Shown in pieces: positions 13,380-31,271 of a stretch of 34,088 nucleotides of DNA. Each line of letters opens with the position of its first letter. Positions within the stretch are counted from its first letter, which is position 1. The stretch is taken from positions 1-34,088 of the forward strand of contig JAJQHZ010000085.1 in assembly GCA_021199475.1 (NCBI GenBank), written 5' to 3'. The notes beneath the pieces are model-generated. The model was not told where the DNA came from, searched no databases, and was given only the letters and a program-made list of their open reading frames with translations. The DNA is from Lachnospiraceae bacterium. Its GTDB lineage: Bacteria; Bacillota; Clostridia; Lachnospirales; Lachnospiraceae. The position numbers were made by a program, and so were the translations under genes.

Positions 13380-13431
13380 AAGGGTCACAGGCATTTAATG
13401 AATGGAAAAAGAAAGAGGAACGGAAATCGAT

Positions 13432-14457
13432 ATGTGGATTGCGAATGATTGGAACGAGTACGAGGTGATCGATACCTCTAAAGGAGAAAAGCTGGAGCGC
13501 TGGGGCGACTATCTGCTGGTGCGCCCGGACCCACAGGTGATCTGGGATACGCCGCGCCGCCACCGCGGATGGAAGCATCCGAACGGGCACTATCACCGCA
13601 GCAGCAAGGGCGGGGGTGAGTGGGAATTTTTCGATCTTCCTGAGCAGTGGAGCATTCATTATCGGGAGCTGACGTTCCGGCTCAAGCCGTTCGCGTTCAA
13701 ACACACCGGGCTGTTCCCGGAGCAGGCCGTGAACTGGGATTGGTTCTCGGAGAAAATCCGAACTGCGAAAAAAAGCAGGGCCGCCGTGGGTGGGGCATTA
13801 TCCTCGCGAGGTGCGAAGCAGAGAGGCGCAGCTTTTAGCGGCGCGGGACTGGATGACGCCCCAAAAGGTGGTACAGCCATGAGCGGCGCGTTCTCAAATG
13901 GCGTGAATGCAAATAAAGCCGGACGAGATGACGGAGGGCGCCCGGTCCGGGTGCTGAATTTATTTGCCTATACGGGCGGCGCGACGCTGGCCGCGGCTGC
14001 CGCGGGCGCGCAGGTCACGCATGTGGACGCTTCGAAGGGCATGGTTGGCTGGGCAAAGGAAAATGCCGCCGCGTCCGGGCTTTCAAATGCCCCGATCCGC
14101 TGGCTGGTCGACGACTGCATGAAATTCGTGGAGAGAGAGATTCGCCGCGGCAATCATTATGACGGCATTATCATGGATCCGCCGTCCTACGGGCGCGGCC
14201 CGAAAGGCGAAATCTGGAAAATCGAAGACTCGATCCATCCGTTTATCCGGGAATGCGCGAAGCTGCTCTCCGATGAGCCGCTGTTTTTCCTGGTCAATTC
14301 CTACACGACCGGCCTTGCGCCCGCCGTCCTGACCTATCTGATCTCGACTGAACTGAAAGGCCGGGGCGGGCATGTCGAATCTCAGGAAATCGGTCTGCCC
14401 GTGCGCGAAAGCGGCCTGATCCTGCCTTGCGGTGCGTCCGGACGGTGGGAGGCGTAG
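13432..14457 (+). CDS. Class I SAM-dependent methyltransferase (RlmI-like rRNA methyltransferase family)
   Basis: A 341-residue protein of the SAM-dependent RNA methyltransferase group related to RlmI. The N-terminus (WERWGDYLLVRPDPQVIW-type, here EKLERWGDYLLVRPDPQVIW) precedes SAM-binding motif I VLNLFAYTGGATLAAA (about 172-187). The catalytic/binding motif IMDPPSYGRGPKG lies near 246-258. Between KIRTAK and RPVRVLNL there is a low-complexity Gly/Ala/Ser-rich insert of roughly 55 residues that relatives generally lack. The chosen ATG gives MWIANDWNEYEVIDTS, matching the family start as I remember it; an ATG 10 codons upstream is possible but has no ribosome site. Target nucleotide cannot be told from sequence. 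Confidence 0.85.
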   Translation: MWIANDWNEYEVIDTSKGEKLERWGDYLLVRPDPQVIWDTPRRHRGWKHPNGHYHRSSKGGGEWEFFDLPEQWSIHYRELTFRLKPFAFKHTGLFPEQAVNWDWFSEKIRTAKKSRAAVGGALSSRGAKQRGAAFSGAGLDDAPKGGTAMSGAFSNGVNANKAGRDDGGRPVRVLNLFAYTGGATLAAAAAGAQVTHVDASKGMVGWAKENAAASGLSNAPIRWLVDDCMKFVEREIRRGNHYDGIIMDPPSYGRGPKGEIWKIEDSIHPFIRECAKLLSDEPLFFLVNSYTTGLAPAVLTYLISTELKGRGGHVESQEIGLPVRESGLILPCGASGRWEA

Positions 14458-14543: not shown

Positions 14544-14577
14544 ATAAACAAAAGGCAGATAACCGAAGTTATCTGCC
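14544..14577 (-). terminator. Terminator below the left nuclease remnant
   Basis: GGCAGATAAC (14554-14563) and GTTATCTGCC (14568-14577) form a perfect 10-bp stem with a CGAA loop. On the - strand it is followed by TTTTGTTTAT; on the + strand only by TCAGATTCCTTTT, so it may work weakly for the methyltransferase as well. The gap 14458-14591 has nothing else. Confidence 0.7.
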
Positions 14578-14591
14578 TCAGATTCCTTTTA

Positions 14592-14990
14592 TCAGGCTTC
14601 CTGCATCGTTTTTTCTCTGATTTTAAGCACGTCCTCGATCGACAGATTCTGGTAAAGCGCTATTTTTTCAACAGGGATATCATCCTTCAGCATTCTCATA
14701 ACAGCTTTAGCGGTTTCCTTGGCCTTATTTTTCTCAGACTGGGCAATGCCCTGCTCGATACCTTGCTCAATACCTTTCTCCCTGCCTTCTTCGACACCCA
14801 GATTGTACAGATTTTCTGCTTCTTTGCTCATTAATTCATATCCTCCCTTCTCCCGCTTTAAATACCGAACGCGTTTTGACAAAGCACTATGGCTCATGTC
14901 ATCCGGATCAGCAGATTTGAAGTATTTCATCATTTTAGCCACGTTGCTTCCATCGTCAACCTTTGCGTTTACATAAATGACGTGACTTCC
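14592..14990 (-). pseudogene. C-terminal remnant of a PD-(D/E)XK nuclease-family (Rpn/transposase-like) gene
   Basis: The translated segment from GSHVIYVNAKVDDGSN to the stop matches the C-terminal part of the Rpn/PD-(D/E)XK 'nuclease family transposase' proteins common in Lachnospiraceae, including the Gly-Ile-Glu-Gln repeats (GIEQGIEQGIAQ) and ENLYNLGVEEGREKG. The nuclease core (D...ExK region) is missing. Upstream of about 14990 the open frame continues to 15209 but in unrelated sequence (Asn/Asp/Thr-rich) without family similarity. It is nearly identical to the 3' part of the remnant at 29961. Family members are thought to promote recombination as DNA endonucleases; this fragment should be inactive. 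Confidence 0.8.
14595..14990. repeat. Left copy of the direct repeat flanking the giant surface-protein gene
   Basis: This segment matches 29964-30359 in the same orientation with a constant offset of 15,369 bp. Positions 14773-14981 and 30142-30350 are identical over 209 bp as compared by eye; mismatches cluster in the part nearest the stop codon. Similarity stops abruptly at 14990/30359. The giant gene and its control region lie entirely between the copies. Confidence 0.9.
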
Positions 14991-15473
14991 ATACGGATTT
15001 GTTGTTGTGTTGTCAGAGTTGTTCCCAAAATAATCACCCCCGTTACTGTCTGTGACTCTTTCAGACGGCATCGCTGATGGCTGATGTTTTGATATGGTTT
15101 CATTATAGTAGAAAACATACGGTCGTGCAAGAGTCACTTTTTTTGGATAAACGTTTTTGCATGAAGCTATATCTGCGAAGATAATAACATAATGATGTTT
15201 AAATGTCAATAATAGAATAATAATAAAACATTTTAAATATGAAAGACAAACTGTTTTACTAAATTGCGATCTGATGAAAGGACAAGGGCTCGTATTTTGT
15301 TAAACACGAACCCGGCCTGGCTCCTGTCATCCGGATTGCCGAAAAAATATCGATTGGGAAGGCTTTGCATGAAAATATCAGAGCAATCGGAATATCAAGA
15401 AAAAATCTATGGGCAAATTTTATAAAAAATACGAGACACCTTACGAAAATTTTACGAAACTGCCCAAAACCAC

Positions 15474-15503
15474 TTGCGGGGGGGGGTCAAACGGTGTTAT
15501 AAT
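15474..15503 (+). promoter_or_regulatory. Promoter of the giant surface-protein gene with a nine-G tract in its spacer
   Basis: A -35-like TTGCGG (15474-15479) and a perfect -10 TATAAT (15498-15503) are 18 bp apart. An uninterrupted run of nine G (15478-15486) starts in the last bases of -35 and fills half the spacer. Homopolymers in this place are known to change promoter spacing by slippage in other bacteria. Here one G fewer would give the optimal 17 bp. The stretch 15210-15470 before it holds only an imperfect hairpin near 15287-15313 and AT-rich DNA. Confidence 0.65.
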
Positions 15504-15522
15504 ACCTGAAATTTGGTCACAG

Positions 15523-15610
15523 TGTAACGCTGTAACAATGTATCAATGCAGCACTGCAACACTGCAACATTGTAACACGGTAATACGGTAATACAGTAAC
15601 ACCGTAACAT
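15523..15610. repeat. Eleven 8-bp tandem repeats in the leader of the giant gene
   Basis: Eleven consecutive octamers run from 15523 to 15610 with a consensus near TGTAACAC; units include TGTAACGC, TGTAACAA, TGCAACAC (variants), GGTAATAC twice and CGTAACAT. The period is exact, with substitutions only. The array lies about 13 bp after the putative transcription start and about 115 bp before the start codon. Confidence 0.9.
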
Positions 15611-15615
15611 AGGTT

Positions 15616-15663
15616 CATGCTCGCGAAGCGGGCATGGACGAAGGCCGCGCCTCGCGCGGCTTT
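15616..15663 (+). promoter_or_regulatory. Two adjacent hairpins in the giant gene leader
   Basis: The first hairpin pairs CATGCTCGC (15616-15624) with GCGGGCATG (15628-15636) around a GAA loop, with one G-U pair. The second pairs AAGGCCGCGC (15641-15650) with GCGCGGCTTT (15654-15663) around CTC, with one G-U pair. The second ends in only three T, so it is a weak terminator candidate or an mRNA stability/attenuation element. Confidence 0.6.
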
Positions 15664-15724
15664 CACTGTAATTTCTGCGTGGGAAGATTTCTTTTCTGCA
15701 AAGCTGGCGATAAGGGGGATCGTG

Positions 15725-18700
15725 ATGAAAAAGAGGATGTTAAAGAAAGCAATGGCGCTGTTCGTGGCGCTGTCACTTGGCGTGACCAGCATTCCGACAA
15801 GTGCATTTGCGGGCGAAACAGGACAGAGCGCGGACGTCGCAGCGGCGATATCCGAAGATGGGGCCGCGGCAATCGCGGAGGATGCATCTGCGGAGGCGGC
15901 AAGTGACGGTTCAGAGAGCGCAGAGGCCCCGGCGGCTGAAGAGTCTGCCGATGCGGGTTCGGAAAGCAGCTCGGACAGTGGCAAAGACGCGGGTGCAGGT
16001 ACGGAAGATGCGGGCGGCTCCGGAAGCAGCTCGGACAGCGGCAAAGACGCGGGTGCGGGTACGGAAGACGCAGGAAGCTCGGAGAGCAGCTCCGGAAGCA
16101 GCCAGAACGCAGGCACGGGCACGGAAAGCGCGGGCGGCTCGGGGAGCGGTTCTGAAAGCAGCGGAAATGCAGGGAACGGCTCGGAAAATGCCGGTACGGG
16201 TACGGAAAACGCGGGCGGTTCAGGAAGCGGCTCGGAGAGCAGCGGAAATGCGGGAACCGGTTCAGGAGAAGCTGATGCAGGAGCGGAAAATGCCGACAGC
16301 TCAGGAAGCGGTTCTGAGAACAGCGGAAATGCAGGGACTGGCTCAGAAGATGCCGGAGCAGGCGCGGAAGACGCGAGCGATTCGGGAAGCAACTCCGATA
16401 GCAGCGCAGACGCAGGAACCGGCTCAGAGGATGCCGGTGCAGGCACAGGAACGGAAGGCGGAGCAGAGAACGGCACGGAGAGCGGCGAAGGCGCTGAGAC
16501 AGGTTCAGCAGAGACTGGTACAGACGCGGACGCTGCAGCAGCATCCGATGAGGGAATCGAACTTGCCAGTGATGAGGTCTGTGCGCATGGAAACACAGCA
16601 GGGGACTGCGCGGTCTGTGTACAGGAGCTGATCGATGCGCTCCCTGGCGTGAATGCATTGGAAGGAATGGATACAGACAGCCTGAACGCGGTTTATGAAC
16701 AGGTGCAGGCTGCTTATAGTGCATATAACGCACTTTCGGCGGGGAACCGGGCGTTGGTGGAAGCGGCGCTTCTGGAGACATTGGCGGATTATTTTGCCAA
16801 CCATCCGGTGGTATTAGCAGAAACAGAAGAAGTAGTCAACGAAGGCGTCGTGATCAAGCTGTCTTCAAAAAACGAGACTGTAAAGACCGGCGAAAACCAG
16901 CAGGTGACAGTGAAGGCCTCCTATGCCGCGACGAATGACGGCGATAAGGCGACGGTGCGCCTTTATATGCAGGATTCTGACGGGAATAAGAATACGCTGG
17001 CTCAACTGTTGAATCTGATTGATGATCAAATCGTGTACCAGAGCGAAAACAATGAGAAGCTTGCGGTTACGCTCTATTACAAGACGGGAGTGGATAATGT
17101 CGGGAACGAAATCGAATACCTGGAGTTTGAACTTCCGGCAGGTACTTCCGTGGAGATGGAGCTGGAATTCTATGTGCCGACCGGCATCTACGGTCCCACA
17201 GAAACGCTGGTTCTTGTGCCGGAGATTACCCACTCAGCGGCTTCGGAGCAGGGCGGCTCAGCGGTCGGAGCGAATGACGAGATTTCACCGGCCAAGCTGC
17301 CTGTATATTGGGAGTCTGCGTTTAACTGGAAGGACCTGACAAAGACGGGAGCTGTGACGAGCGGCACGACTGCAAATGGAAATGTACCTAATACGGAAAT
17401 CAGCACGGATGGCGTCCTGGATTCGGATATTGCCTATACATTTTCTGCAGTACCGAATTCGGATACAACCGGCATCATCTGGACGAAGGAAACGACGGTT
17501 ACAGATACAATCACATTGCCGGACGGGATGACCTTCCCGAGCGGATTAAAGATCGGTACGAACAGCACGGATCCGGGGGCGAAAGCGGATGGTATTTACC
17601 TGACCGATGGAAACGGAACCTGCACGACGAAGGTGATTGATGTAAGTGTCGGTGATCTTGACTTTGAATTGACCGATCTGGCAATAGGGACAAATAATGA
17701 CGGAAATGCTACGCTTTCTTTTACAGTCACTACGGAGAATCCGAACGTGGATACGGAGAGCGGAGACCTGACGGCGGATTATAATATGATTTCCGGTCTC
17801 AGTGTGACGATCCTCAAGGCGATCGGTCTGGAGATGGATGAGCGTGTCTGGGATGATGATAATATCATCAACAATTCGATTACGGCGACGTTTACACCAT
17901 GCCGCGAGGTGGATGAGATTAAACTGGACGCGGCGTGTGATGTGAATCTGACGGTCAAAGAAGACACGGTTTCTATCGAAAAGACCGCGGATACCACCTA
18001 TGTGGCGGAGGACGGAACGGTCACCTATACTGTGTCTGTCACAAACAATACGACAGAAGATCAGAACTTTGATTTCTACGACCTGATCTCTTCGGATATG
18101 AATCTGACGGAGTATTCTGCCCTGACGGATCTTGGCCTGTCCATCGGCAAACACGTGGATACGATCTATAGCGGCACGGATATGAAAACTGTCACCGTGG
18201 GTGATGGGACTGCGTCTGCGACGGAGGCGGTATTCACAGTAAATGAAGAAGTGGATCTGGCGGCGGGCGCTTCCGCTCTGGTGAAAGTGACACTTCCGTC
18301 TACGGATGATGAGATCACCGGCGACATAACGGTTACCGGTGTATTAAGCGTGACGGACGCGAACGGCGCTACAGCGACGTATACCAGCAAAACAGCCACG
18401 GTTGATTTCACAAAATCGGAAACGGCCGCGGACGGCACACGGAGTGTGTACGCGGTGCTGACGTTTGACAATGTTGCTGTCGATGATGCGACGGTGACTT
18501 CTCTGACCGTGACCACAGCGTCCGTGGCGGATACAGATGAGGAGCGCTATTCAGGGACACTCAGTGTGGGCGAGATCACGGTGATGAACGGCGCGGTGGA
18601 TGCGGATGATGATACAACGATTGCGGCGGGCGGCACATCTACTACATTGTATAATAATACTGCCAGCTATTCTGCAAGCAGCATTACCTTTGACGCCTCT

Positions 18701-21700
18701 AACTACTGGGATCAGAAAGCACTCAATGAATCTTATCCGGGACTTACTGCGGATAATTTTAAGATCAGTGGTACCTCTGAGCTTACAGTAGATGTAACAA
18801 ATGACACATCGAATAACATAAGCTGCTCCGGATACTATCTGGTAGTCGGAATGGTCGACAACAACTGGGACTGGGATAATTACATTTATCTGCAGCAGGC
18901 GATAGGAACGGTAACGCCAGGCATCACTACCTACACCTTTGATCTGCCGAGTAACTTTTATAACTACCAGGGGCTGGGATATGTCAGTATCAGTATCGTT
19001 GGCTCCGGAGTTTCTGCATCCAGGAACATTTCGATTGGGAACCTGAAGATCACGTCAACGGAAAGCCCGGTCTATCAGAATTTTGTCTCCGGTTCGTTTG
19101 AAGTCAAAGCGGGTGAGACGGTCAGCTTCAGCTATACTGTGACGCTGAAGGATACTGCTTCGGCGACGGTTACAAATGAGGCGGTGATCGGGAACGACAA
19201 TGGCTGGTATAAAGCAGAACTGGACGTTGCGGTCGTAGCAGGGACCGGAGACGCCAGCCTGGATCAGGTCTGGATTGACAAAGAGCTGGTTGCCAGGGAT
19301 GCAAGCTATTCCTCTACGGTTCAGGACAGTAACGGGACGACGTTAACCGAACTGATCACAGAAGAGACCTTTAAAAAATACGGATACACTTATGATGCGG
19401 ATGATCTTACCAGTGGATGGTCAGAAGAAGAGGATATGACCTTCCTTAACTGCCTCTCCGAGGGAGCGAAGCTTTACTATGAGATCACCCTGACAAATGA
19501 ATCGAATACCGCACAGGTGGTGACGCTGCAGGACTTCTCTCCGCTGTATTATGGCAAGCTGCAGAGCGCTTCTGCGGCAACGCCGGTCTCCATCTATTCC
19601 GGCAGCAGGGATTTTGGCGGCGTGGAGTATGTGGACAACGGCACCATCGGAAGCTTCAGTGCAAATGATTTCGCGGAAAATGGCGTGGAGTTGAAGTACA
19701 ACAGCAACGATCACATCACAACGATGCAGGTGGTTATCCCGGCGAAAACGACCTATACGCAGATGTTCGTGGTAAATGTACCGAAAGGGGATGATTTCCT
19801 GTATTGGGAGGAATACTGCTATTATACACAGTATTCGGAAATGAAGAACGAAACCACCAAGGACGTGGTCAGTCAGGAAAAAAATTCTGCTACTTATATT
19901 CCTTATAATACTCTGCGTCTGGTCGGCACAGACCGATATGTGTCGGTGCAGCATTCGTTTGAAAAGAAGGTGCAGGTGAACACATACGCGCTGGGTGAGT
20001 TTAGTTCTGATTACCGCTATGGGACGACCAGCGCGGTGGGGACTGCTCTGACAGATTATACAAGGACAGATACAAAGTCTGCGGATGGCAACCGCTATTA
20101 TCCGGTCATCAATTACAATATTTCGGATATCTACAATGTAGCGGCGGATTCCGATACCTATCTGGTTTATGGCGTGACGGTGACAAACGACAGCATCTGG
20201 AGCATGAAGCTGGAAGATCTTACGACTCAGATCGCGTTGCCGAACGGAACGGAGCTGGTAGGATTTGTAGATCTTCAGACTGCGGATTATTCGCTGGGTA
20301 TGGGCGAAAAGAATTCCTATCGAAACTACGATGGCAGTATTCGGGTATCGTATCCGTTAAGCCCAGGTTATATCAGCAGCACGGCTCTTTCTTCCTTGCA
20401 GGGACTGTTTGGCATATCGCTTGGCAGCTACAAATCCGGACGGACAAGCAGTTATCTGCCGTTTTCGATGGGCGATAACTATCAGCAGTACCGGACAGAC
20501 CATGCGGTCACCGCTACTACTTCGAAATATGACTACGCACAGTACGGCTCCATCGACAGAGCCGGTGGAAGCGGCGTTTATACGGTTACGCTTCAAAACA
20601 TCACGGACGGGCAGATGATCTCCGCAAAATCCTCTGCGACGTTCTACTATATCGTCCGTGTGAAGGATGACTATACATCGACAAGTACCGTTTATACGGC
20701 GGCTTCTGTGACCGTGGACGCTCCGGTCACGACAGTCCGGATGGCCTCCAGGGAAGCTGCATACTCAGACGGTTCAGGTCTGATGCAGACTTATGGCTCT
20801 TATAGTCAGAGCAGCAATCTGGTAGGTCAGTCGCAGTATTACAACCTGAATTCTTCGAACGGACATTCTACCTTTATGTCGCAGATTTCGCAGCAGTTTT
20901 GCAATTCTACTCAGACGATGCTGTACAAGAGTGTGGTTGGACGGAATACGCTGGAGGATATGGAAAATGGAGATGCGACGCTGACCTTGTACAGTACGGA
21001 TCTGAATGAAGTCACCATATCGGATGATGAGGTGGTGACCTTCTGCCTTGCGATTTCCAACGGTTCAGAGACTTCGACGACCTATACGGTGAATGATACC
21101 CTGCCGACCGGGATGACATTCCTCGGATTCAATGTTCTGACCGGGGATTATGAGTCAAATACCTATACCGGAACTACGAACAGTTTGAGTTGGTCGTCCA
21201 TTTATGACGTGGATTCCGTTAAGCGTTCCACCACCGGGAGAACAGCATCGTTTTCTGTGGAGGACTATTACCTGTCCGTACCGTACGCGAGCCTGGCGAC
21301 GGCATATAAGAACGAGAGTCCTGATTCCATGGATGTCCCGGCCAACAGCTTCTATACGTTTGATTATGGAGTAAGTGAGCGGACGCGGATGACGGCAAAT
21401 CATTCTTCTGTAGCGGGAAGCAATGCGGCCGTGGGAGGCTCGTCTTTCTCGTTCGGAGTAAATGTTGACGCGAATTCGACCGTATATATCTTCTATACCG
21501 CGAAGGTGGACGCCAGTGCGTTAGAAGAAGACGATGTGATTACAAATACTGCGACCATCACCCCGACCAGCGGTGTGATGACAGTATTCAAAAACGCAGT
21601 AACCGCGGAATATTACAACAGCGCATGGAGCGCATCGAACATCAACGAGGAAGGAAGAAATATCGACAAGGGAGAAGCGGTCGGCTATGCTGCGTCGATA

Positions 21701-24700
21701 TGCAATCCGCAATATGATTCGCAGGCGTTGGTAAGCTCTATACAGGCTTCGGTGTCCATGACGGCGAAAGAGCAGGTGAAGTCGGCGAAGATTGAGAAGG
21801 AAGTAGTTGGCGCATATTTGACAGAAGCCAGTGGCTCCTCTTATTATGAGAATGATGATGTAACTTCGGTTGTTTTGGGTAGTGACGGCGAAAACCTATA
21901 CAACATTGTTGGCAGCTATATGACAAACTTAATATCTGCTTCCGAAATGCGGATTTCCCCAGGATGGTCTACTCTTGTCTATTCGATTGTGGATGGTATT
22001 CATGCGACACAGGATTACCGGAGCAATATTGTATGGAAGGTGACTGTGACGAATGATGGAGAGGAAGCGATTGACGCATCTCATATCATTGAACATATGG
22101 ATCAGCCGATGCAGATGGTCGGGTATTTAGCAGTCTGCTATAACGATAATGGCGGGGCTGTAGGACTTACTTACGGAGCAGCTTCCTATGATTCTGTTGC
22201 TAATCTGTATGAATACAGTGGGAACGATGTAACGGTTAGTACCGGAAATGCTGATTATACATCAAAAGTCACAGGTGCGACGGTTACGCAGAATATTTAT
22301 GATATTGATCTGACAACGAAGTATATTAAATTTGGCGTGACCTATGATGTATCGAATCTTCCGTCCGGATATTCTTATGAACTGTATGTCTTTACAGACA
22401 TGACCGAGGAAGCTCTGGACTGGTATTACAATACCGCTGTTCTGGATCTTGGCGATAAGTTCCAGTCTGATGTGGAAGAATACGATTCTACGTCCATCTA
22501 CGCGAGCGACTGGATCACCTGCATCGCTTCTGATGGCGAGAAATATATTTCCAAGGGAACTGAGGATGAAGTAAACTCCAAGGAAAGTCTGGTTTATCTG
22601 GATACGATCACAGGCGAGAAAACATACACGTTTACGCTGAAGATGATGTCGAAGCTTTATCAGACAGCGCAGTATCAGAATGGAGAGCTGTCGCAGATCA
22701 TCTTTTACGACTTGCTGCCGGGAACCTCGGGCGGTCTTGAAGAAGACGAGCCGGGCGGCGGCTATACGGTGGATACGGACAGCTTTAATGCCTATATCTT
22801 AAGAACAAATGACAATACCGGAGCAACCTATAAAATACCGATCACCGCTGACCATTATACGGTGAATTATACAACGAACTCCCTGCACGGCGGTCGGCAC
22901 CCGATCAGTGTCAATGATACGGTGTACAACGTCGATTTCAGCGAGGCAACAGCGGAAACTACCGAATGGCATGAGAATTATTCTCAGGATGACCGTGCGT
23001 TCCGCGTGGTATTTGACACTACCGTCACTCTGAAAGACGGCGACATGCTTTACTTTGAGTATGATGTCAAGACCAGAGAGGATGTGGACTATGATACGGA
23101 ATACCACAACATCTTCGGTTACAGCTATACTCTGACCTCCGGAAACTACGTGGTGGGTCTCTATGAGGATACCACGGATGTGACCCTGCAGCCGGAGTAT
23201 GGAGAGATCTATGTCGGCAAAGCTCTGTATGACTCAGAGGGAAATGAGCTGGATGTGGACACCGATTCGATTCCGACTTATATCGCGGATAGGGATTACA
23301 CGTTCACACTCTATGAGTACGATGATGCGACACAGGAATACAATAAGGAAATTTATACCTTTACGCTGAAAGCCGGTGAGGCGCTGGAGCTTCTGGCACT
23401 TCTGGAAGCAGCGGAGGATGACCAGAGAAACAGCACTCCGATTGAGCTTGAGAAAGGCAAAGCCTACCGTCTGGTGGAGACCTTGAAGGACGAAAACGGC
23501 GATCCTGACAATGTCATTAAGAGTTCGGATGATCCGGAGGCGGAGACTACTTCAGTCTACACCTATGGGATTGAATCCGGCGACGAGGACTTTACGACTG
23601 GCATGGATACGGACAACCTGCTGCAGTATGTGGACTTTACCTTCGACGGCACCGGCACGAAGCTGATCTTTAAGAACCAGCTGTATAAGAGCGGCGCAGT
23701 GCGGATCGAGAAGGAAGATCAGGATGGCATCGCGATCACTTTTGATGAGGATACGACGGTAAAATACAGGGTTTATACAGATAAAGAAAAAACAAAGCTG
23801 GTCTACTTCACGGCGACGGAGGAGAATGTTTATCGTTATGCAAGCTCTTATCAGGAGACGGGGGCGGTGTCGGAGCTGACCGCGACGGAGTATCAGCTGA
23901 CACTGTACAACCTGCCGATTGGTACTTATTATCTGGAAGAAGTGGAAGCGCCGGAGAATTATTTAAAGAAAGAAGAACTCACGGAATTTGAAGTGACGAA
24001 AAGCCAGTGGAGCTCGGATACGGAGGACGACGAGAGCAACATTCTGACAGTGGAAGTTGAAAACACTTATGATGGCGTTACCGAGCTTTTGCTGAAAAAG
24101 CTGAACGAGAGCGGGGATCTGATCACTTCCTCGGAGACGAGCTTTACAGTGACCAGTTCGTCTGTATGGACAGACAATCTGAAGACGGCCTATAGCTTTG
24201 TCCTGGAAGATACTACTGACGAGAAAGGAAATATCTATCATCTCGCAACGGATGCGGAGCTGGCGGATAGTTCTGTGGATAAGGTGCAGACGCTGACGAC
24301 TTCGGGCGGTAAGCTTTATCTGTCAGGGCTGGACGAAAAAACCATGTATTTCCTGTTCGAGGTCGCTGGCCCGGACGGATATTGGTCAGGCGGGCAGAAG
24401 AAGACGGTTCTGTCCGGCGCGAATGTGGACGATGATGGAATCCTTACCGTTGCGAATGAATCTGCCACATTCTCCAAAGAGATCACGAAGACGGACGAAG
24501 ACGGCGTGGTGATCACGGAAGAAGTGTCCTTTGAGATCTACAAAGATGCGGATTATACCGAGATCGCTTATTTCCAGAAGCTGGATGATCTGACCGATGG
24601 CACTAATGTAACTTCAAGCTGTTATAAATATGTCACGGCCGCCGAGGCAGCTGCTTTGCAGGCATCGGATCCGCATTCAGTAACGACAACGGTGACGACA

Positions 24701-27700
24701 GCGGCCGGAAAGGTAACTCTTACAGACCTGCCGTATTATTGCTATTACACAGATACCTACACGGCGTGGATATCGCAGACAGAATCCGAAACGTATGAAT
24801 ACTGGACCTATGGATATCAGTACTATTATATTAAGGAAACAGCGGCACCGCGCGGCTACAGCCTTGGCAGCGGCAGCTTCTATAGCAATGCGTCAGAGGA
24901 ACTGACGACATTCACGTTCGAGAATAAGATTCTCGCGGGTCACATGAACCTGACCAAGACAGACAACCAGGGTGTTACGCTGACAGATGGCACGGCGAAG
25001 TTTGAGATTTATGACGAAAACAATAATCTGGTTGCCTTTGCCTTGGATAATACGAACGGATATTATTACGTGAGCGGCGTAGAATCGGAGAATACGATCA
25101 CCACCCTTATGACGACAGCTGGTACGCTTTCGGTAAAATACCTGCCGCTGGGCAAGTATACGCTGAAGGAGACAGAGGCACCTGAAGGGTATGCGGTGGC
25201 AAGCGAGACGACAGGCTTTACCATCACGAAGGCAAACTTTACGACTCCGTTGGAGCTGACGATTAAGAACGCGCACAACAACGGCGGCATCATTGTGACC
25301 AAACAGGATACGCAAGGGGCTGCGGTCACTTCGGATATGGCGAAGTTTGAGATCCGGACACTTGTGTACGATGAGGGAACCGGACAGACCAGTGAGGGGG
25401 CTGCGCTTACCTTTACACTGGATGATGGCGAAACAGCAGCGGCCGGACATCCGGTTTACCGGTATTCCTCCACAGGCACTGTGACCGAACTGGAGACCGG
25501 CAGTGATGGCAAATTTGCCGCATATGGGATACTGCTTGGCACCTACCATCTTGTCGAGACAGAGGCTCCGGACGGGTTTGAACTGGCGGACGCGAAGGAA
25601 ATCACTGTGACGGCAGCAGATTATTATGCCGAACAGGAAATTTCTGTCACGGATGGCCATGACAACGGCAAGGTGCAGATCTCCAAGCTTGATACGAATG
25701 GTGATCTGATTGAGAGTGATGCAATCGTGTTCCAGCTCTATGTCTACACGGATGACGCGATGACGACAAGTGAGCTGGTGAAGCTTTCCTACACAGGAAA
25801 TACGACGGATGACGGACGGGTATATACCTACGATCAGGACAACCCAAATAACAATACCTATAACCGCCTGACAACGTACAAAGGAAAGATTTATATTGAT
25901 CATCTGCCGGTCGGACATTATTATCTGAAGGAAATCGTGGCGCCGAGCGGGTACAGCCTGCTTGCGGACAAGTTCCCGTTCACAGTAACGGATAGCGAGT
26001 ATTATACGGTGCTGAATTATTCGGTGCAGGATCCGGATTATACATTTGGAGCTGAGGAGTATGTGTCCTCCTCCTACCAGAAGATCGAGGAGAAGGATGA
26101 TCCGGACAACTACGGATATGGATACAACGGAACACAGGCGGATTACGACGCAGGCAACAAGAACTACATCGTTGTAGACGCTGCGGAGGATCTGGTGACC
26201 TTTACCCTGCGGGTCATGAACTGCTCTCAGAAGGCATTTGAACATGTCGTGATCATTGATTCTCTGGCAGATATCAATGATACCGGTGCGGTGAACCTGG
26301 ATCAGGACAGAGGGTCGGAATTTACCCTTGCTCTGGCGGGCAATGCGAATATCTCGGTGACGATGTTCGATGAGAATGGCAATGAGATTGCACTGCAGTC
26401 CTCGGAGTACAGTATTTCCTATTCGAGCAAGACCTCCTATACGGACGGCGACTGGGACGGCACTTCCACCTGGTCAGCAGAGGCGGACAGTTCGACCCGT
26501 TCGTTCCGTGTGATGATGGCTTCTGATTTTGAACTGCCGGTCGGCTATACGCTGCAGGTAACGTTTGACTCGGAGATTCAGGACAACGCGGAACCGCTGG
26601 AGATCGCGTGGAACGCGTTCGGCTATCGGTATTATGTAGAGAGTGTGGAGCTGACGCCGGAACCGCCGAAGGTAGGAGTGAAGATTCCGGACGCGCCGTC
26701 CATTACAAAGGTTGTGACGGATAAGTCAGCAGCGATGAGTGATACGGATACGTATACATTCTACGTCTATGAAGTAACGACGGATCTGGAAGGAAAAGAA
26801 ACCGAAACACTGGTGAAGACTCTGGAGGTAAAACCGAACGTCAAGACAGAATTGACGCCGCACCGCATCATCAATGGCGTAGACAATAACGGTTATATTG
26901 AATCCGGTCATACTTATAAAGTTGTCGAAGCGGCATCCAAGAAGACTACACTGCTGAATGTGACCGGAAGCATGGACTCCGTCAAGGAGATGACATTTAA
27001 TTTCACCTATGACCCGGAAGCGGAAGGAGCAGAGGCAACCTTTACGAACGGCCAGAGCTATAACGGTGAGGTTCTCCTGACAAAGACAGACGTGGACGGA
27101 ACCGTTTTGCCGGGAGTAAAATTTGAACTGCGGGATTCATCGGGCAAGGCATATAACGTTACATGGTCGAGTGCGAAGCAGGCGTATGTCATTGACAGTA
27201 CCTCTTCGAATACGACACTGACGACCAATGCAAGCGGACAGATCCGGATCGTAAGCCTGCCTTATGGCGACTACGTCCTGGTTGAGACGGAAACGCTGGA
27301 TGGATACGTCTTAAGCAAAACGGAGCAGAAGTTTACGATTGATGATAATGACTTTACGTTGGAGGATACCGATGGGGACGGCGCGCTCGAGGGTGAGGAG
27401 CTGACTGTGATTCCGGAGGAAATCAGTGTTGTAAACCAGCCGACCAGCGTTTCAATCAGTAAGGTCAGCGGCTATGATGGGCTGACGCTGGTGTCCGGCG
27501 CGGTGCTGAAAGTTACGAATGTGGCGGACCCGACGGATGTGAGGACGGTTACAACGACAGCGGACAAGGCGGTTGAGATTACCGGTCTGGCTGCCGGGAC
27601 TTATACGATCAGCGAGACAACGACGCCGGAGGATTTTGAGACGGCAGCGGATGTTACGTTTACAATCGATAAGTATGGCGTGGTGACTGTGAACGGGAAG

Positions 27701-29695
27701 ACGGTTGAAACGGTTACCGTTACCGATGACCTGATTGTCGGTGCGATTAAGGTTACGAAGACCGGTGAGATGGCGGACACCGTCACGGTATCGGGAGGCA
27801 CGGACTATACAGTGGCGTATGCGGACGGAGTACTCGGGGATGTTACGTTTGAGCTGTACGCAGCGGAAGAGATTAAGGTACAGAATGTGGTAATTTTCGC
27901 TAAGAATGCTCTGATCGATACGCAGACGACGGGCGCGAACGGCGTGGCCACATTTGGGAACCTGCCGCGCGGGAACTATTACCTGGTTGAGAAGGAGGGC
28001 AAATCCGGCTATCTGACCGATGTGACCCCGATCGCTGTGGCGGTTGGCTATGACGCGAGCGGCGCGAAGACAGATGTGGATACTGTGGATGTGACCGTGG
28101 AGAATGAGCGCGTGAAGCTGGCGGTATCGCTGGTCAAGACCGAGCCGGATGGAAAAACCCCGGTCGCGAATGCGAAATTTGGTCTGTACACGGCGGAAGA
28201 GACGACCATTGGAACGGTCCTGATTCCGAAGGATACGTTGCTCGAATCTGTGACAACGGGTGAGGACGGAAAGGCGGCGTTCACGATCGACCTGCCGCTT
28301 GGAAAGTATTATGTGCAGGAGATTTCGGCGCCGGATGGCTACGTACTCTCCGATGAGAAACAGGAGATTGACTTTAATGATACTCTGGCCGCGACGGCGG
28401 ATACGAAGACGGCGACGGTATCTGTCACAGCAGAATTTACGAATGACTACACGAAGGTACAGTTCAGTAAGAAAGACCTCTCAACCGGAGAAGCGCTTTC
28501 CGGAGCAACGCTGGAGGTATATGACTCGGCCGGCACGCTGGTGGAAACCTGGGTGACGGACGGAACGGCACACGAGATCGACCGCCTGCCTGCGGGAGCG
28601 TACACGCTGGTAGAGAAGAGTGCGCCGGATGGCTATGCGGTAGCGGAGACGGTGAGCTTTACGGTGAAAGCGACCGGCGAGGCTCAGACGGTGGAGATGT
28701 TTGATGCGCAGGCAGAGACGGAAGCACCGAAGCAGACGGAGACGACACCGCAGAGCGAGACCACGCCGCAGTCGGAGACTTATAAGACCAGTGAAACTGC
28801 ATCGATTTCGGTGACGAAGAATCTGACCTACAATGATATGAATCTGGTGGCGAAGGATGAGACCTTCTATGTGGCACTATATACGGATGAAGCCTGCACC
28901 AGCCGGATATCCGATGTGAAGGCGCTGGAGTTCAAAAATGGATCCGCTTCGACGGTGACATTCACGAATCTTGATATTGGCAGAACCTATTATATCGGAG
29001 AATGTACGGCAGACGGTACGCGGATTTTGTCCGGGGCGGTTGCGGATGGTACGCTGTATTATGTAAACTTTGGCGATGGCAATGCTGTGACCGTTACGGA
29101 TGAGACCGGCAGAGTGACCAAATACTTTGAAAATCAGTATATGGAGATTCCGGCCGGCGGATACAGCCTGGAAGCGGAGCTGACGATTACAAAGAAAGTG
29201 CTTGATTCGAACGGGAAGGCGCTTAAGAGCAGCGAGACCTTCTATGCAGGAATCTTCGCGGATGCTTCTTACACGACATTGGCGGATAACGTAGATCAGA
29301 ATATTGTGCCGCTGACAATGAATGGCAAGTCGAAGACGAGCGAGATTGTCAAAGTAGCCATCAACCGAAATGAGACGGTGACGCTTTACATCACTGAGGT
29401 GGACGCGGATGGAAACCCGGTCGAGGGTGCGGATGGATTTATGTACACCGTGAGTGCGGATCAGACAAAGGTTCTTCTGGATCCGGACAATCCGACTGCG
29501 ACCGTGACCATCACGAATCAGGCAATGGAAGCCGACGAAACTGAGACCGAGACCGAATCCGAGACCGGGACAAATTCAGTGCAGACCGGTGACGACACGC
29601 CTCTGGCGATGTGGCTCTGCTTCCTGATCGCGGCGCTGGGCGTGCTGTTGGCGGGCGGCTTCTACCGAAGGAGACGCGGTGGCGCGGAGAAGTAA
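15725..29695 (+). CDS. Giant putatively sortase-anchored surface protein with Cna-B/SpaA repeats
   Basis: A 4656-residue exported protein, probably a fibrillar adhesin. Residues 1-30 are a signal peptide (MKKRMLKKAMALFVALSLG.. ending AFA). Residues about 73-277 are Ser/Gly/Glu/Asn/Ala low-complexity sequence with 27-residue repeats. A short Cys pair region (C286) and helical segment follow, then long beta-rich repeats including DUF11-like units (about 749, IEKTADTTYVAEDGTVTYTV). From about 2656 to 4335 there are eleven Cna-B/SpaA-like modules, recognisable by endings such as YTLKETEAPEGY, YHLVETEAPDGF and YYVQEISAPDGY; such modules often form Lys-Asn/Asp isopeptide bonds. Two further beta domains precede the C-terminal sorting signal VQTGD (4619-4623), a hydrophobic helix and RRRR. 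The start at 15725 follows AAGGGGG; the frame upstream lacks a signal peptide context. No sortase is in the window. Confidence 0.93.
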   Translation: MKKRMLKKAMALFVALSLGVTSIPTSAFAGETGQSADVAAAISEDGAAAIAEDASAEAASDGSESAEAPAAEESADAGSESSSDSGKDAGAGTEDAGGSGSSSDSGKDAGAGTEDAGSSESSSGSSQNAGTGTESAGGSGSGSESSGNAGNGSENAGTGTENAGGSGSGSESSGNAGTGSGEADAGAENADSSGSGSENSGNAGTGSEDAGAGAEDASDSGSNSDSSADAGTGSEDAGAGTGTEGGAENGTESGEGAETGSAETGTDADAAAASDEGIELASDEVCAHGNTAGDCAVCVQELIDALPGVNALEGMDTDSLNAVYEQVQAAYSAYNALSAGNRALVEAALLETLADYFANHPVVLAETEEVVNEGVVIKLSSKNETVKTGENQQVTVKASYAATNDGDKATVRLYMQDSDGNKNTLAQLLNLIDDQIVYQSENNEKLAVTLYYKTGVDNVGNEIEYLEFELPAGTSVEMELEFYVPTGIYGPTETLVLVPEITHSAASEQGGSAVGANDEISPAKLPVYWESAFNWKDLTKTGAVTSGTTANGNVPNTEISTDGVLDSDIAYTFSAVPNSDTTGIIWTKETTVTDTITLPDGMTFPSGLKIGTNSTDPGAKADGIYLTDGNGTCTTKVIDVSVGDLDFELTDLAIGTNNDGNATLSFTVTTENPNVDTESGDLTADYNMISGLSVTILKAIGLEMDERVWDDDNIINNSITATFTPCREVDEIKLDAACDVNLTVKEDTVSIEKTADTTYVAEDGTVTYTVSVTNNTTEDQNFDFYDLISSDMNLTEYSALTDLGLSIGKHVDTIYSGTDMKTVTVGDGTASATEAVFTVNEEVDLAAGASALVKVTLPSTDDEITGDITVTGVLSVTDANGATATYTSKTATVDFTKSETAADGTRSVYAVLTFDNVAVDDATVTSLTVTTASVADTDEERYSGTLSVGEITVMNGAVDADDDTTIAAGGTSTTLYNNTASYSASSITFDASNYWDQKALNESYPGLTADNFKISGTSELTVDVTNDTSNNISCSGYYLVVGMVDNNWDWDNYIYLQQAIGTVTPGITTYTFDLPSNFYNYQGLGYVSISIVGSGVSASRNISIGNLKITSTESPVYQNFVSGSFEVKAGETVSFSYTVTLKDTASATVTNEAVIGNDNGWYKAELDVAVVAGTGDASLDQVWIDKELVARDASYSSTVQDSNGTTLTELITEETFKKYGYTYDADDLTSGWSEEEDMTFLNCLSEGAKLYYEITLTNESNTAQVVTLQDFSPLYYGKLQSASAATPVSIYSGSRDFGGVEYVDNGTIGSFSANDFAENGVELKYNSNDHITTMQVVIPAKTTYTQMFVVNVPKGDDFLYWEEYCYYTQYSEMKNETTKDVVSQEKNSATYIPYNTLRLVGTDRYVSVQHSFEKKVQVNTYALGEFSSDYRYGTTSAVGTALTDYTRTDTKSADGNRYYPVINYNISDIYNVAADSDTYLVYGVTVTNDSIWSMKLEDLTTQIALPNGTELVGFVDLQTADYSLGMGEKNSYRNYDGSIRVSYPLSPGYISSTALSSLQGLFGISLGSYKSGRTSSYLPFSMGDNYQQYRTDHAVTATTSKYDYAQYGSIDRAGGSGVYTVTLQNITDGQMISAKSSATFYYIVRVKDDYTSTSTVYTAASVTVDAPVTTVRMASREAAYSDGSGLMQTYGSYSQSSNLVGQSQYYNLNSSNGHSTFMSQISQQFCNSTQTMLYKSVVGRNTLEDMENGDATLTLYSTDLNEVTISDDEVVTFCLAISNGSETSTTYTVNDTLPTGMTFLGFNVLTGDYESNTYTGTTNSLSWSSIYDVDSVKRSTTGRTASFSVEDYYLSVPYASLATAYKNESPDSMDVPANSFYTFDYGVSERTRMTANHSSVAGSNAAVGGSSFSFGVNVDANSTVYIFYTAKVDASALEEDDVITNTATITPTSGVMTVFKNAVTAEYYNSAWSASNINEEGRNIDKGEAVGYAASICNPQYDSQALVSSIQASVSMTAKEQVKSAKIEKEVVGAYLTEASGSSYYENDDVTSVVLGSDGENLYNIVGSYMTNLISASEMRISPGWSTLVYSIVDGIHATQDYRSNIVWKVTVTNDGEEAIDASHIIEHMDQPMQMVGYLAVCYNDNGGAVGLTYGAASYDSVANLYEYSGNDVTVSTGNADYTSKVTGATVTQNIYDIDLTTKYIKFGVTYDVSNLPSGYSYELYVFTDMTEEALDWYYNTAVLDLGDKFQSDVEEYDSTSIYASDWITCIASDGEKYISKGTEDEVNSKESLVYLDTITGEKTYTFTLKMMSKLYQTAQYQNGELSQIIFYDLLPGTSGGLEEDEPGGGYTVDTDSFNAYILRTNDNTGATYKIPITADHYTVNYTTNSLHGGRHPISVNDTVYNVDFSEATAETTEWHENYSQDDRAFRVVFDTTVTLKDGDMLYFEYDVKTREDVDYDTEYHNIFGYSYTLTSGNYVVGLYEDTTDVTLQPEYGEIYVGKALYDSEGNELDVDTDSIPTYIADRDYTFTLYEYDDATQEYNKEIYTFTLKAGEALELLALLEAAEDDQRNSTPIELEKGKAYRLVETLKDENGDPDNVIKSSDDPEAETTSVYTYGIESGDEDFTTGMDTDNLLQYVDFTFDGTGTKLIFKNQLYKSGAVRIEKEDQDGIAITFDEDTTVKYRVYTDKEKTKLVYFTATEENVYRYASSYQETGAVSELTATEYQLTLYNLPIGTYYLEEVEAPENYLKKEELTEFEVTKSQWSSDTEDDESNILTVEVENTYDGVTELLLKKLNESGDLITSSETSFTVTSSSVWTDNLKTAYSFVLEDTTDEKGNIYHLATDAELADSSVDKVQTLTTSGGKLYLSGLDEKTMYFLFEVAGPDGYWSGGQKKTVLSGANVDDDGILTVANESATFSKEITKTDEDGVVITEEVSFEIYKDADYTEIAYFQKLDDLTDGTNVTSSCYKYVTAAEAAALQASDPHSVTTTVTTAAGKVTLTDLPYYCYYTDTYTAWISQTESETYEYWTYGYQYYYIKETAAPRGYSLGSGSFYSNASEELTTFTFENKILAGHMNLTKTDNQGVTLTDGTAKFEIYDENNNLVAFALDNTNGYYYVSGVESENTITTLMTTAGTLSVKYLPLGKYTLKETEAPEGYAVASETTGFTITKANFTTPLELTIKNAHNNGGIIVTKQDTQGAAVTSDMAKFEIRTLVYDEGTGQTSEGAALTFTLDDGETAAAGHPVYRYSSTGTVTELETGSDGKFAAYGILLGTYHLVETEAPDGFELADAKEITVTAADYYAEQEISVTDGHDNGKVQISKLDTNGDLIESDAIVFQLYVYTDDAMTTSELVKLSYTGNTTDDGRVYTYDQDNPNNNTYNRLTTYKGKIYIDHLPVGHYYLKEIVAPSGYSLLADKFPFTVTDSEYYTVLNYSVQDPDYTFGAEEYVSSSYQKIEEKDDPDNYGYGYNGTQADYDAGNKNYIVVDAAEDLVTFTLRVMNCSQKAFEHVVIIDSLADINDTGAVNLDQDRGSEFTLALAGNANISVTMFDENGNEIALQSSEYSISYSSKTSYTDGDWDGTSTWSAEADSSTRSFRVMMASDFELPVGYTLQVTFDSEIQDNAEPLEIAWNAFGYRYYVESVELTPEPPKVGVKIPDAPSITKVVTDKSAAMSDTDTYTFYVYEVTTDLEGKETETLVKTLEVKPNVKTELTPHRIINGVDNNGYIESGHTYKVVEAASKKTTLLNVTGSMDSVKEMTFNFTYDPEAEGAEATFTNGQSYNGEVLLTKTDVDGTVLPGVKFELRDSSGKAYNVTWSSAKQAYVIDSTSSNTTLTTNASGQIRIVSLPYGDYVLVETETLDGYVLSKTEQKFTIDDNDFTLEDTDGDGALEGEELTVIPEEISVVNQPTSVSISKVSGYDGLTLVSGAVLKVTNVADPTDVRTVTTTADKAVEITGLAAGTYTISETTTPEDFETAADVTFTIDKYGVVTVNGKTVETVTVTDDLIVGAIKVTKTGEMADTVTVSGGTDYTVAYADGVLGDVTFELYAAEEIKVQNVVIFAKNALIDTQTTGANGVATFGNLPRGNYYLVEKEGKSGYLTDVTPIAVAVGYDASGAKTDVDTVDVTVENERVKLAVSLVKTEPDGKTPVANAKFGLYTAEETTIGTVLIPKDTLLESVTTGEDGKAAFTIDLPLGKYYVQEISAPDGYVLSDEKQEIDFNDTLAATADTKTATVSVTAEFTNDYTKVQFSKKDLSTGEALSGATLEVYDSAGTLVETWVTDGTAHEIDRLPAGAYTLVEKSAPDGYAVAETVSFTVKATGEAQTVEMFDAQAETEAPKQTETTPQSETTPQSETYKTSETASISVTKNLTYNDMNLVAKDETFYVALYTDEACTSRISDVKALEFKNGSASTVTFTNLDIGRTYYIGECTADGTRILSGAVADGTLYYVNFGDGNAVTVTDETGRVTKYFENQYMEIPAGGYSLEAELTITKKVLDSNGKALKSSETFYAGIFADASYTTLADNVDQNIVPLTMNGKSKTSEIVKVAINRNETVTLYITEVDADGNPVEGADGFMYTVSADQTKVLLDPDNPTATVTITNQAMEADETETETESETGTNSVQTGDDTPLAMWLCFLIAALGVLLAGGFYRRRRGGAEK
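15943..16520 (+). repeat. Low-complexity repeats coding the stalk-like N-terminus of the giant protein
   Basis: The DNA contains imperfect units of about 81 bp encoding 27-residue repeats such as GGSGSGSESSGNAGNGSEN-AGTGTENA, preceded by shorter 21-residue units (GGSGSSSDSGKDAGAGTEDAG). All differ by multiples of three, so recombination between them would change stalk length without shifting the frame. The composition (Ser, Gly, Glu, Asp, Asn, Ala) is very unlike the folded domains that follow. Confidence 0.8.
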
Positions 29696-29746
29696 GCGGC
29701 GATGAAATGCAAGCCATGAAAGCGCTGTAAAACAAAAACAACAAAC

Positions 29747-29781
29747 GAGACCGTCCGGGGATTCCCGGGCGGTCTCTCTTT
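29747..29781 (+). terminator. Terminator of the giant surface-protein gene
   Basis: GAGACCGTCCGGG (29747-29759) pairs with CCCGGGCGGTCTC (29764-29776) in a 13-bp stem with one G-U pair and a GATT loop, followed by TCTTT. It lies about 50 bp after the stop codon. Confidence 0.8.
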
Positions 29782-29796
29782 GCACAGGAGCGGGCA

Positions 29797-29827
29797 GGGC
29801 ATATCCCATGCGAAGCGTGGGATGCCC
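29797..29827. other. Stable hairpin after the giant gene
   Basis: TCCCATGC (29804-29811) and GCGTGGGA (29815-29822) close a GAA triloop; after a two-base bulge, GGGCA and TGCCC extend the stem to 13 bp. GCGGGCA (29790-29796) could instead pair with TGCCCGC (29823-29829), giving an alternative structure. Function unknown. The rest of 29830-29960 has only a short inverted repeat (CCCCACAATC/GATTGGGGG). Confidence 0.6.
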
Positions 29828-29960
29828 GCGCCCCACAATCGGAGATTGGGGGCATAACCCGGCGAGGGCGCTTTGCGGCTAAAGCTGCATCCGTTTCCTG
29901 CGCGATTGCACAGGCGTGTGCGAAATGTTTAGCATGGCTTTTTTACATAGGAAGGAGGCA

Positions 29961-30737
29961 CTAGGCTTCCTGTGGCATTTTTGCCCTGATTTTAAGAACA
30001 TCCTCTATCGACAGATTCTGATAAAGCGCTATTTTTTCAACAGGAACCTCATCCTTCAGCATTCTCATAACAGATTCAGCGGTTTCTTTGGCTTTGTTTT
30101 TCTCAGACTGGGCAATGCCCTGCTCGATACCCTGCTCAATTCCTTTCTCCCTGCCTTCTTCGACACCCAGATTGTACAGATTTTCTGCTTCTTTGCTCAT
30201 TAATTCATATCCTCCCTTCTCCCGCTTTAAATACCGAACGCGTTTTGACAAAGCACTATGGCTCATGTCATCCGGATCAGCAGATTTGAAGTATTTCATC
30301 ATTTTAGCCACGTTGCTTCCATCGTCAACCTTTGCGTTTACATAAATGACATGGCTTCCGTCATCGTATGGAATTGCGGAATCTCCGGTTCCCAGCGTTT
30401 TCTCGACTTTGTAAATGGGTTTTCCGGCGTTCCGCAAGTCCGTTTCGCTGATGTAGATAATGTACACATCGGGAAGCTTATCATAATCGATCCCCTTGTC
30501 CAGATTGCTTTTGTCGATCATGGAACCGTAGTATCTTGTACGCCTTGCATGATCGACCGTGTCTTTCCGCTGAATTTCGACGTTCATCAGCCGTCCGCTG
30601 CTGTCCTCGGCAAAGATATCCAGTACAGAATCTTTTGCGGTCAGGTTCAGGAGACGGTACTGTCCTTTGACTTTGATTACATTTAAGTCGTCTGTGCCCA
30701 GAATTGTACGGAGTACGTACTGACAGGCTGCTGCCTC
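29961..30737 (-). pseudogene. 5'-truncated PD-(D/E)XK nuclease-family (Rpn/transposase-like) gene
   Basis: Reading leftward from 30737 the frame is open to the stop at 29961 (258 codons) but lacks the family's N-terminal start. It begins AAACQYVLRTILGTDD, continues VKGQYRLLNLTAKDSVLDIFAED and NVEIQRKD (the D...ExQ-x-K nuclease core), then HARRTRYYGSMIDKS and VYIIYISETDL, and ends in the C-terminal region shared with the copy at 14592. Family members act as DNA endonucleases that promote recombination and spread in many copies through clostridial genomes. An internal ATG at 30587 could start a shorter protein, but it would lack the first acidic catalytic residue. The frame joins the stop codon of the metallopeptidase gene directly. 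Confidence 0.8.
29964..30359. repeat. Right copy of the direct repeat flanking the giant gene
   Basis: Partner of 14595-14990, same orientation, offset 15,369 bp; identical over 30142-30350. In this copy the sequence beyond 30359 continues into the rest of the nuclease coding region, whereas in the left copy it changes to unrelated DNA. Confidence 0.9.
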
Positions 30738-31271
30738 CTACTCGATCTCCAGATTGATATTCTTGAGCTGCGCCCGCCGTTCGCGGTAGTCGGGCATTTC
30801 CTGCTCGACGATGGCCCAGAACCGCGCGGAGTGGTTCATCTCGCGCCGGTGGGCGAGCTCGTGTACGACGACGTAATCCAGCAATTCCGGCGGCACGAGC
30901 ATCAGCTTCCAGTTGAAGTTCAGGTTCCCGGCGGCGCTGCAGCTGCCCCAGCGGGTTTTCTGCTCGCGGATGGTGATGCGTCCGTAGGTCACGCCCATCC
31001 GCGTCGCGTAGTAAGCCACGCGCTCCGGGATGATCCGGACGGCGTCCTGGATGCCCTTCTCACGCTCTTCCTGGGTGATGGTGTGCATGTTCTTCCGGGC
31101 TGCGGCCAGTTTTTCCTGTGTATGGGCAATCCAGTCGCTGTGCGACTGCACGAACTGCTGGATCTCCCGCTGTGACATGCGCATGGGTGCGCGGACGACG
31201 AGCTGTCCATCGTTTTTGACCTGAATGGCCATGGTTTTCCGCTGTGAGCGGATGAGGGTATATTCATACAT
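30738..31271 (-). CDS. YgjP-like (DUF45/WLM-type) zinc metallopeptidase
   Basis: A 177-residue cytoplasmic protein with the zinc motif HELAH (137-141) and a third ligand H147 (HRREMNHSARFW), plus the family signature TRWGSCS (106-112). Family members are predicted metal-dependent hydrolases whose substrates are mostly unknown. The start ATG at 31271 gives MYEYTLIRSQRKTMAIQV, a normal family N-terminus, with GGAGC about 11 nt upstream. The TAG stop at 30738-30740 is also the upstream boundary of the nuclease remnant in the same reading frame. Codon use and context do not tie it to the envelope genes around it. Confidence 0.88.
   Translation of the reverse strand: MYEYTLIRSQRKTMAIQVKNDGQLVVRAPMRMSQREIQQFVQSHSDWIAHTQEKLAAARKNMHTITQEEREKGIQDAVRIIPERVAYYATRMGVTYGRITIREQKTRWGSCSAAGNLNFNWKLMLVPPELLDYVVVHELAHRREMNHSARFWAIVEQEMPDYRERRAQLKNINLEIE

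Follow-up and report, generated by a model that had tools for sequence, protein, structure and literature searches.

Genomic context of the giant adhesin gene

The stretch of DNA analysed here (henceforth the window) covers positions 1 to 34,088 of a contig of 142,146 bases from the genome assembly of a Lachnospiraceae bacterium (165 contigs, 3.8 Mb, 96.7% complete). It carries a giant gene for a SpaA/Cna-B-type surface protein (hereafter the adhesin; 15725..29695, + strand; PF17802, 344 bits over 9 stretches), whose product ends in a QTGD motif and a membrane anchor (read by eye) and which lies between two long direct repeats. The open reading frame (ORF) opens at 15617, though 15725 is more likely to be the start codon, since the ATGAAAAAGA found there is common to two relatives.

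The repeats occupy positions 14595-14990 and 29964-30359 on the same strand and share 396 aligned bases (94% identical, offset 15,369 bp), with a 209-bp core that is identical in the first (14773..14981) and the second copy (30142..30350). The original prediction had described them as two same-orientation nuclease-gene remnants of about 396 bp, and our alignment confirmed their coordinates and the identity of the core; another comparison of the copies gave 93% over 300 nt. Twenty of the 22 mismatches fall within 14604-14772 and the other two at 14982 and 14985; when 22 mismatches are placed at random, so long an identical run appears once per 100,000 placements. The homology ends at the stop codons of both copies, and the comparison of their 3' flanks revealed no similarity, while at the other end copy 2 extends past the 396 bp, with Rpn homology continuing to about 30,730. 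Searches of the 3.8-Mb assembly with the repeat DNA (E<=0.001) and with the protein encoded by copy 2 reached these two places only. The situation that would have detached the repeats from the adhesin, namely identical remnants spread widely through the genome, was thus not encountered in this assembly. The repeats had also been said to enclose the gene together with its promoter and terminator: the ORF and the promoter do lie between them, while for the terminator a GC-rich hairpin was seen by eye (at about 29741-29783) at which the + strand terminator scan gave no call.

Rpn relics at both ends of the gene

Both repeats are relics of one Rpn (PD-(D/E)XK) subfamily, and the nuclease is lost in both. 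Copy 2 (29961..30737, - strand), truncated on its 5' side at the stop codon of the neighbouring YgjP gene, passes the family cut-offs (PF12784, 29.1 vs 27.4 bits; TIGR01784, 58.1 vs 52.1 bits) with a match that begins inside the profile. Copy 1 (14592..15209, - strand) keeps the 5' region of the family, its ribosome site and approximately 14 codons, after which the sequence skips, with a change of frame, to the C-terminal part, which matches only positions 208-273 of the TIGR01784 profile, below the cut-off; its three-frame reading beside intact genes of related species showed that the catalytic middle is gone. Neither copy is therefore a complete gene with a nuclease domain, owing to an internal deletion in copy 1 and to the 5' truncation in copy 2. 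A gene from a related species (G065) has a comparable internal deletion, which starts from a different N-terminal point, and has part of the 5' region in common with copy 1. The description of the repeats as nuclease-gene remnants hence stands, in the form of Rpn relics found at this site only in this genome. Five PF12784 matches were found genome-wide (three of them nearly complete), of which the copy-2 protein reached none but copy 2 itself, so that we assign the other PF12784 genes to other subfamilies.

A C-terminal ORF of 79 codons is uninterrupted in both relics (14592..14831 with the ATG at 14831, and 29961..30200 with the ATG at 30200; both - strand) and is preceded in each, nine bases upstream, by the Shine-Dalgarno-like AAGGGAGGA. 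The same methionine was present in all 11 intact relatives matched by a pattern in which it was not prescribed, as well as in a twelfth that the pattern missed (G027). Four-residue repeats begin at residue 12 of the ORF (by eye), and their number differs among relatives. The two ORFs differ from each other by a dN of 0.045 and a dS of 0.293, a sign that purifying selection acted at some stage, which may have been before the damage. The structure predicted for the 79-residue product (moderate confidence: mean pLDDT 75, pTM 0.47) has helices at 3-49, 54-60 and 65-78. No Pfam family, DUF4351 (PF14261) included, matched either ORF at E<=1, and a sequence search of the PDB returned no credible match. 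The ORFs resemble known RpnS antitoxins and may have antitoxin activity. Word searches of the open-access literature found no paper joining Rpn with Lachnospiraceae, and a single one (PMC10327210) on RpnS antitoxins.

Divergence and probable exchange between the relics

The distribution of synonymous change along the repeats suggests that the copies separated long ago and that their core was exchanged recently. At third codon positions the copies differ at 0 of 69 sites in the core and at 12 of 59 in the tail (Fisher P 5e-5). The dS of the tail (0.375) comes close to that measured between the window and its orthologues in G032, which among the relatives compared has the most similar flanking genes (0.532 for the methyltransferase and 0.447 for YgjP), and it is this combination of a tail nearly as old as the split from the nearest relative compared with, in addition, an identical core that indicates an old separation followed by recent exchange. 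In comparison with seven outgroup genes, the copies differ at third positions by 0.41-0.64 in the core and by 0.42-0.78 in the tail; as core third positions have diverged this far from the outgroups, the identity of the core is not attributable to constraint. Had the core evolved at the tail rate, scaled to the outgroups, it would have remained unchanged with a probability of 1.5e-6, or of 0.005 were the tail rate in truth as low as 5/59. Exchange between the two copies in the past is thus most likely, with gene conversion as the best reading of the pattern. Foreign replacement of one of the tails may be considered as an alternative, although each tail is more similar to the other than to any of the seven outgroup genes. 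An open-access word search found no paper on gene conversion between repeats at an adhesin.

The site in related species

The adhesin and its relics lie between a SAM-dependent methyltransferase gene on the left (13402..14457, + strand; PF10672, 47.9 bits) and a YgjP-like metallopeptidase gene on the right (30738..31271, - strand; PF01863, 181.6 bits), which form a convergent pair; a terminator-like hairpin (14552..14579, - strand; consensus scan only) is situated downstream of copy 1. Methyltransferase matches (E<=1e-40) were obtained in 36 of the 60 genomes searched, the window's own included. Using one genome per species, we called the site wherever the methyltransferase and YgjP both matched on one fetched stretch, which was the case at 7 of 80 YgjP loci, in seven species (G032, G063, G061, G026, G013, G062 and G007). 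The ends of the two matches were 36-203 bp apart in six of them, where the site is empty, and 2.5 kb apart in G032, where it is filled by an arylsulfotransferase gene. An Rpn piece or an adhesin was found at the site in none of the seven, and neither was matched near the methyltransferase at any of the 33 methyltransferase loci fetched (YgjP was on the stretch in 4 and not in 29, some contigs being short). The gap between the methyltransferase and YgjP is thus a slot that varies between species.

The original prediction was of an adhesin that may be excisable by recombination between the repeats, which would leave one repeat copy at a site without the gene and produce a population of adhesin-plus and adhesin-minus cells; as an alternative it named a record of how the gene was inserted. 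Part of it is upheld by our data, as past exchange between the copies is supported and the slot does vary between species, yet the one-copy site did not appear in any of the seven other species with the site. The Pfam scan, confined to the window, covered 17 of its 78 ORFs (>=80 aa) and revealed no integrase or site-specific recombinase among them; excision would therefore depend on general recombination, which is normally irreversible, and since nothing was seen on the loop that would serve its own replication or re-entry, a loss would normally be permanent. Likewise, the assembly holds no third repeat copy (E<=0.001) that would betray a junction contig. Deletion via the repeats is possible, and probably one-way, a route of loss rather than a switch.

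Two further modes of mobility were considered and set aside. For a composite transposon or integrative element, neither inverted repeats of >=40 nt nor a recombinase in the 17 ORFs were found (tRNA sites and RNA families being outside the scan), and for carriage by a phage or a plasmid, the adhesin had no match in plasmids, phages or viral contigs. The Rpn protein had distant matches only (1 plasmid record and 7 phage records, and none in viral contigs).

A poly-G tract in the putative adhesin promoter

A putative promoter of the adhesin (15474..15503, + strand), delineated by alignment and pattern searches, contains a tract of nine G (15478-15486) between a TTG and an extended -10 element, TGTTATAAT, with a spacer of 18 nt (by eye). 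This G9 is the sole run of G or C of at least 8 in the window. Among 47 genomes of the genus we found two other genes that share the N-terminal region of the adhesin (in G007 and G064), and a G tract is present at the aligned promoter position of both, so that the layout recurs in 3 of 3 adhesin genes with G9 in the window, G10 in G007 and G8 in G064. A strict pattern (TTGNN-G7-N5-13-GTTAYAA) had two matches in the 47 genomes, both at adhesin genes, and none in the reversed control; it missed G007, where the stretch before the tract is longer. A looser pattern had a single match in 397 genomes of the family, which was the window itself, and none of these other family genomes yielded an adhesin homologue (scoring was limited to two candidates per genome); this set includes only two genomes of the window's genus, and G007 and G064 are outside it. 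The fetched genus loci (1.42 Mb, with some overlap) contained 7 runs of G or C of at least 8, two of them belonging to these adhesin promoters and five lacking the layout (by eye).

The conserved tract probably marks a phase-variable promoter of the adhesin, and slippage within it would be a likelier source of mixed expression than excision; the population mix that had been attributed to excision is better explained in this way. An open-access word search found no paper on homopolymeric promoter phase variation in Lachnospiraceae. The leader of the adhesin additionally contains a degenerate 8-bp tandem repeat (15519..15609, + strand; 11.4 copies, repeat scan) and a hairpin (15640-15664), a stretch that is mostly missing from the aligned leaders of G007 and G064.

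Rpn-segment repeats elsewhere in the genus

Direct repeats made of Rpn segments (92-98% identical) bracket other genes in four species of the genus: a schlafen AlbA_2 gene in G006, an AAA-ATPase_like gene with PDDEXK_9 in G067, an AAA_35 gene in G064, and in G011 a gene whose protein has no Pfam match and a signal-like N-terminus (by eye). A further pair, at 85% identity, was present in G009. Four of the loci concerned (L131, L225, L226 and L227) had been chosen for two close Rpn matches among the matches listed; another chosen on the same grounds (L228) had no such repeat. The G064 locus (L134; C164:1-15000) was fetched for its adhesin relative, which lies at the edge of the contig. Upstream of it comes a divergent Rpn gene, and then the AAA_35 gene between 98% identical 343-bp direct repeats that overlap the end of the Rpn ORF (a pair that our script left without an Rpn flag). 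At the G067 locus (L227; C207:1-6556) two similar AAA-ATPase-like ORFs lie between the Rpn C-terminal direct repeats, and the first of them opens inside the Rpn segment.

A rule by which Rpn genes come as direct-repeat pairs was rejected, as a repeat inside the Rpn match was present at none of the 37 loci surveyed around the stronger matches (38 of 67 rows; L115, L123 and L124, which have no Rpn repeat, were left out), and one of the 37 (L255) had a 113-bp repeat beside the match. Control loci were likewise free of Rpn repeats, both at the methyltransferase (33 loci, 434 kb; 1 other direct repeat) and at YgjP (80 loci, 1.42 Mb; 3 others). Long repeats break assemblies, and the survey may undercount them. 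Bracketing by Rpn segments hence recurs within the genus and is uncommon, in keeping with the tandem rpn duplication reported in PMC10327210. Fifteen of the 67 Rpn matches had an open frame of <200 aa and were sorted by hand into 12 with the C-terminal part only (one at a contig edge), one N-terminal and two from the middle, a distribution that may suggest retention of C-terminal pieces.

Two repeats of other kinds were noticed: a 144-bp direct repeat (88% identity, copies 14 kb apart) at 1079-1222 and 15053-15194 of a locus from G017 (L047), and in the window a 36/72-bp tandem repeat (7760-7943) at the 3' end of an MBOAT acyltransferase ORF (7597-9399, - strand).

Proposed origin and fate of the arrangement

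We regard it as probable that decayed old Rpn paralogues flank an acquired adhesin gene, that their core was recently converted, that loss through them is one-way, and that on/off variation arises by slippage in the G9 tract. By this account, the giant adhesin gene would have been acquired into the variable gap between the methyltransferase and YgjP, where it sits with the relic of one Rpn paralogue on either side, and gene conversion would have homogenised the core recently. A RecA-type crossover within the core would delete 15,369 bp and leave one hybrid relic, composed of the 3' end of copy 1 and the body of copy 2 and retaining an intact 79-codon ORF, whereas the excised loop would carry away the adhesin with the promoter side of copy 1. 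From day to day, the adhesin would be turned on and off by slippage within the G9 tract of its promoter spacer, a mechanism like that of porA-type promoters, rather than by excision.

Several observations weigh against this account. The consensus scan did not pick up the poly-G promoter, whose -35 element is weak and whose layout is supported by only three adhesin genes. The comparison of tails rests on just 59 codons, and among the outgroups amino-acid conservation is greater in the core than in the tail. If the assembly was built from short reads, a 209-bp exact repeat exceeds typical read lengths and the collapsing of bubbles could mask a few core differences. Moreover, each species is represented by one assembly, and excision and changes in tract length are both predictions from sequence.

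The closest competing explanation, less probable and still to be taken seriously, is that the repeats record the entry of the gene, an adhesin fragment with its own Rpn gene having recombined with an Rpn gene resident in the gap. It would account for the lack of Rpn copies and adhesin at the site in all seven other species, and it is encouraged by the divergent Rpn gene just upstream of the G064 adhesin relative; that gene, however, is only 36% identical to copy 2, no Rpn match was obtained in the stretches fetched around the G007 adhesin gene, and a single genome cannot give the order of events.

We consider it unlikely that the adhesin is a regularly excised module, whose relics recombine frequently enough to yield both adhesin-plus and adhesin-minus cells. 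The 396-bp direct repeats with their identical core and the probable past exchange between them are what such a module would exhibit, but against it stand the lack of a one-copy site in the seven other species with the site, of a third copy or junction contig in the assembly, and of a recombinase among the ORFs scanned. The divergence of the tails, near the age of the species split, adds to this, since it implies that the module was kept if the copies have flanked the gene ever since they separated.

Slightly less credible still is an assembly artefact, in which repeats collapsed in a short-read metagenome would explain the identity of the core or even the placement of the adhesin. The contigs of the seven relatives with the site all have NODE-style names, and 7 of 16 high-ranking matches to the Rpn subfamily in relatives lie <=1.2 kb from a contig end, where 1.6 would be expected (the 16 are the 17 top matches listed without G063:C72, and the 1.2-kb limit was set after the positions had been seen), so that Rpn genes seem to break assemblies. 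Nevertheless, unique sequence enters and leaves each copy, their truncations and stop codons differ, and the given path is the simplest through such a graph. Strong nucleotide-level constraint in place of exchange is very improbable, as the higher overall conservation of the core than of the tail among the outgroups is offset by its diverged third positions.

To return to decayed paralogues around an acquired gene, the arrangement is genuinely deletion-prone, yet what was found speaks for old relics that exchanged sequence recently rather than for an active excision system. More speculatively, and with little expectation that it will hold, one may envisage that stand-alone RpnS genes kept for immunity serve as homology islands at which accessory genes are loaded, exchanged or lost, with conversion keeping the pairs ready to recombine; if true, the accessory genes would include giant adhesins, AAA ATPases and schlafen-domain proteins.

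Comparison with known systems

The relics are most readily compared with the Rpn/RpnS systems (Zhong et al. 2023, PMC10327210). In that source, RpnS is characterised by a C-terminal ORF with its own start and ribosome site, by four-residue repeats 8-20 residues after the methionine, by a three-helix fold with a long first helix and, in some species, by DUF4351 (PF14261); it blocks its cognate RpnL, and stand-alone rpnS copies as well as direct duplication of rpn genes are reported. The window shares with these systems the Rpn family match, the C-terminal ORF with an internal start and the four-residue repeats. It departs from what is described there in that the full-length form is gone from both copies, an unrelated 14-kb gene is bracketed, and the genome search found no further member of the window's Rpn subfamily. 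The Rpn (YhgA-like) RecA-independent recombination proteins, as portrayed in PMC5350276, are broadly similar PD-(D/E)XK nucleases whose tail varies; in the window the nuclease is broken, and the DNA would serve as homology and not as the source of an enzyme.

For the promoter, the nearest parallel is the porA type, which according to PMC7864442 has a poly-G tract between the -35 and -10 elements and a spacer optimum of 17. Here too a G tract occupies the promoter spacer of a surface-protein gene, and the 18-nt spacer of the window is near that optimum; the host differs, being a gut Lachnospiraceae, as does the gene, a giant Cna-B adhesin. In Bifidobacterium, sortase pili are controlled by G-tract slippage (PMC9187656), and the window would be a candidate for similar control, by a G tract, over a surface structure of the sortase type in a commensal of the gut, with the difference that the tract is intragenic at the two pilus loci of that study and in the promoter here. 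On a sequence two situations look alike, and this analysis tells them apart: a gene open to loss by way of the repeats on either side, and one whose promoter can switch it. If the G tract does vary, a surface protein of about 4,700 residues, from a gut lineage of Lachnospiraceae known here from metagenome assemblies, would be under stochastic control like the meningococcal porins and the bifidobacterial pili.

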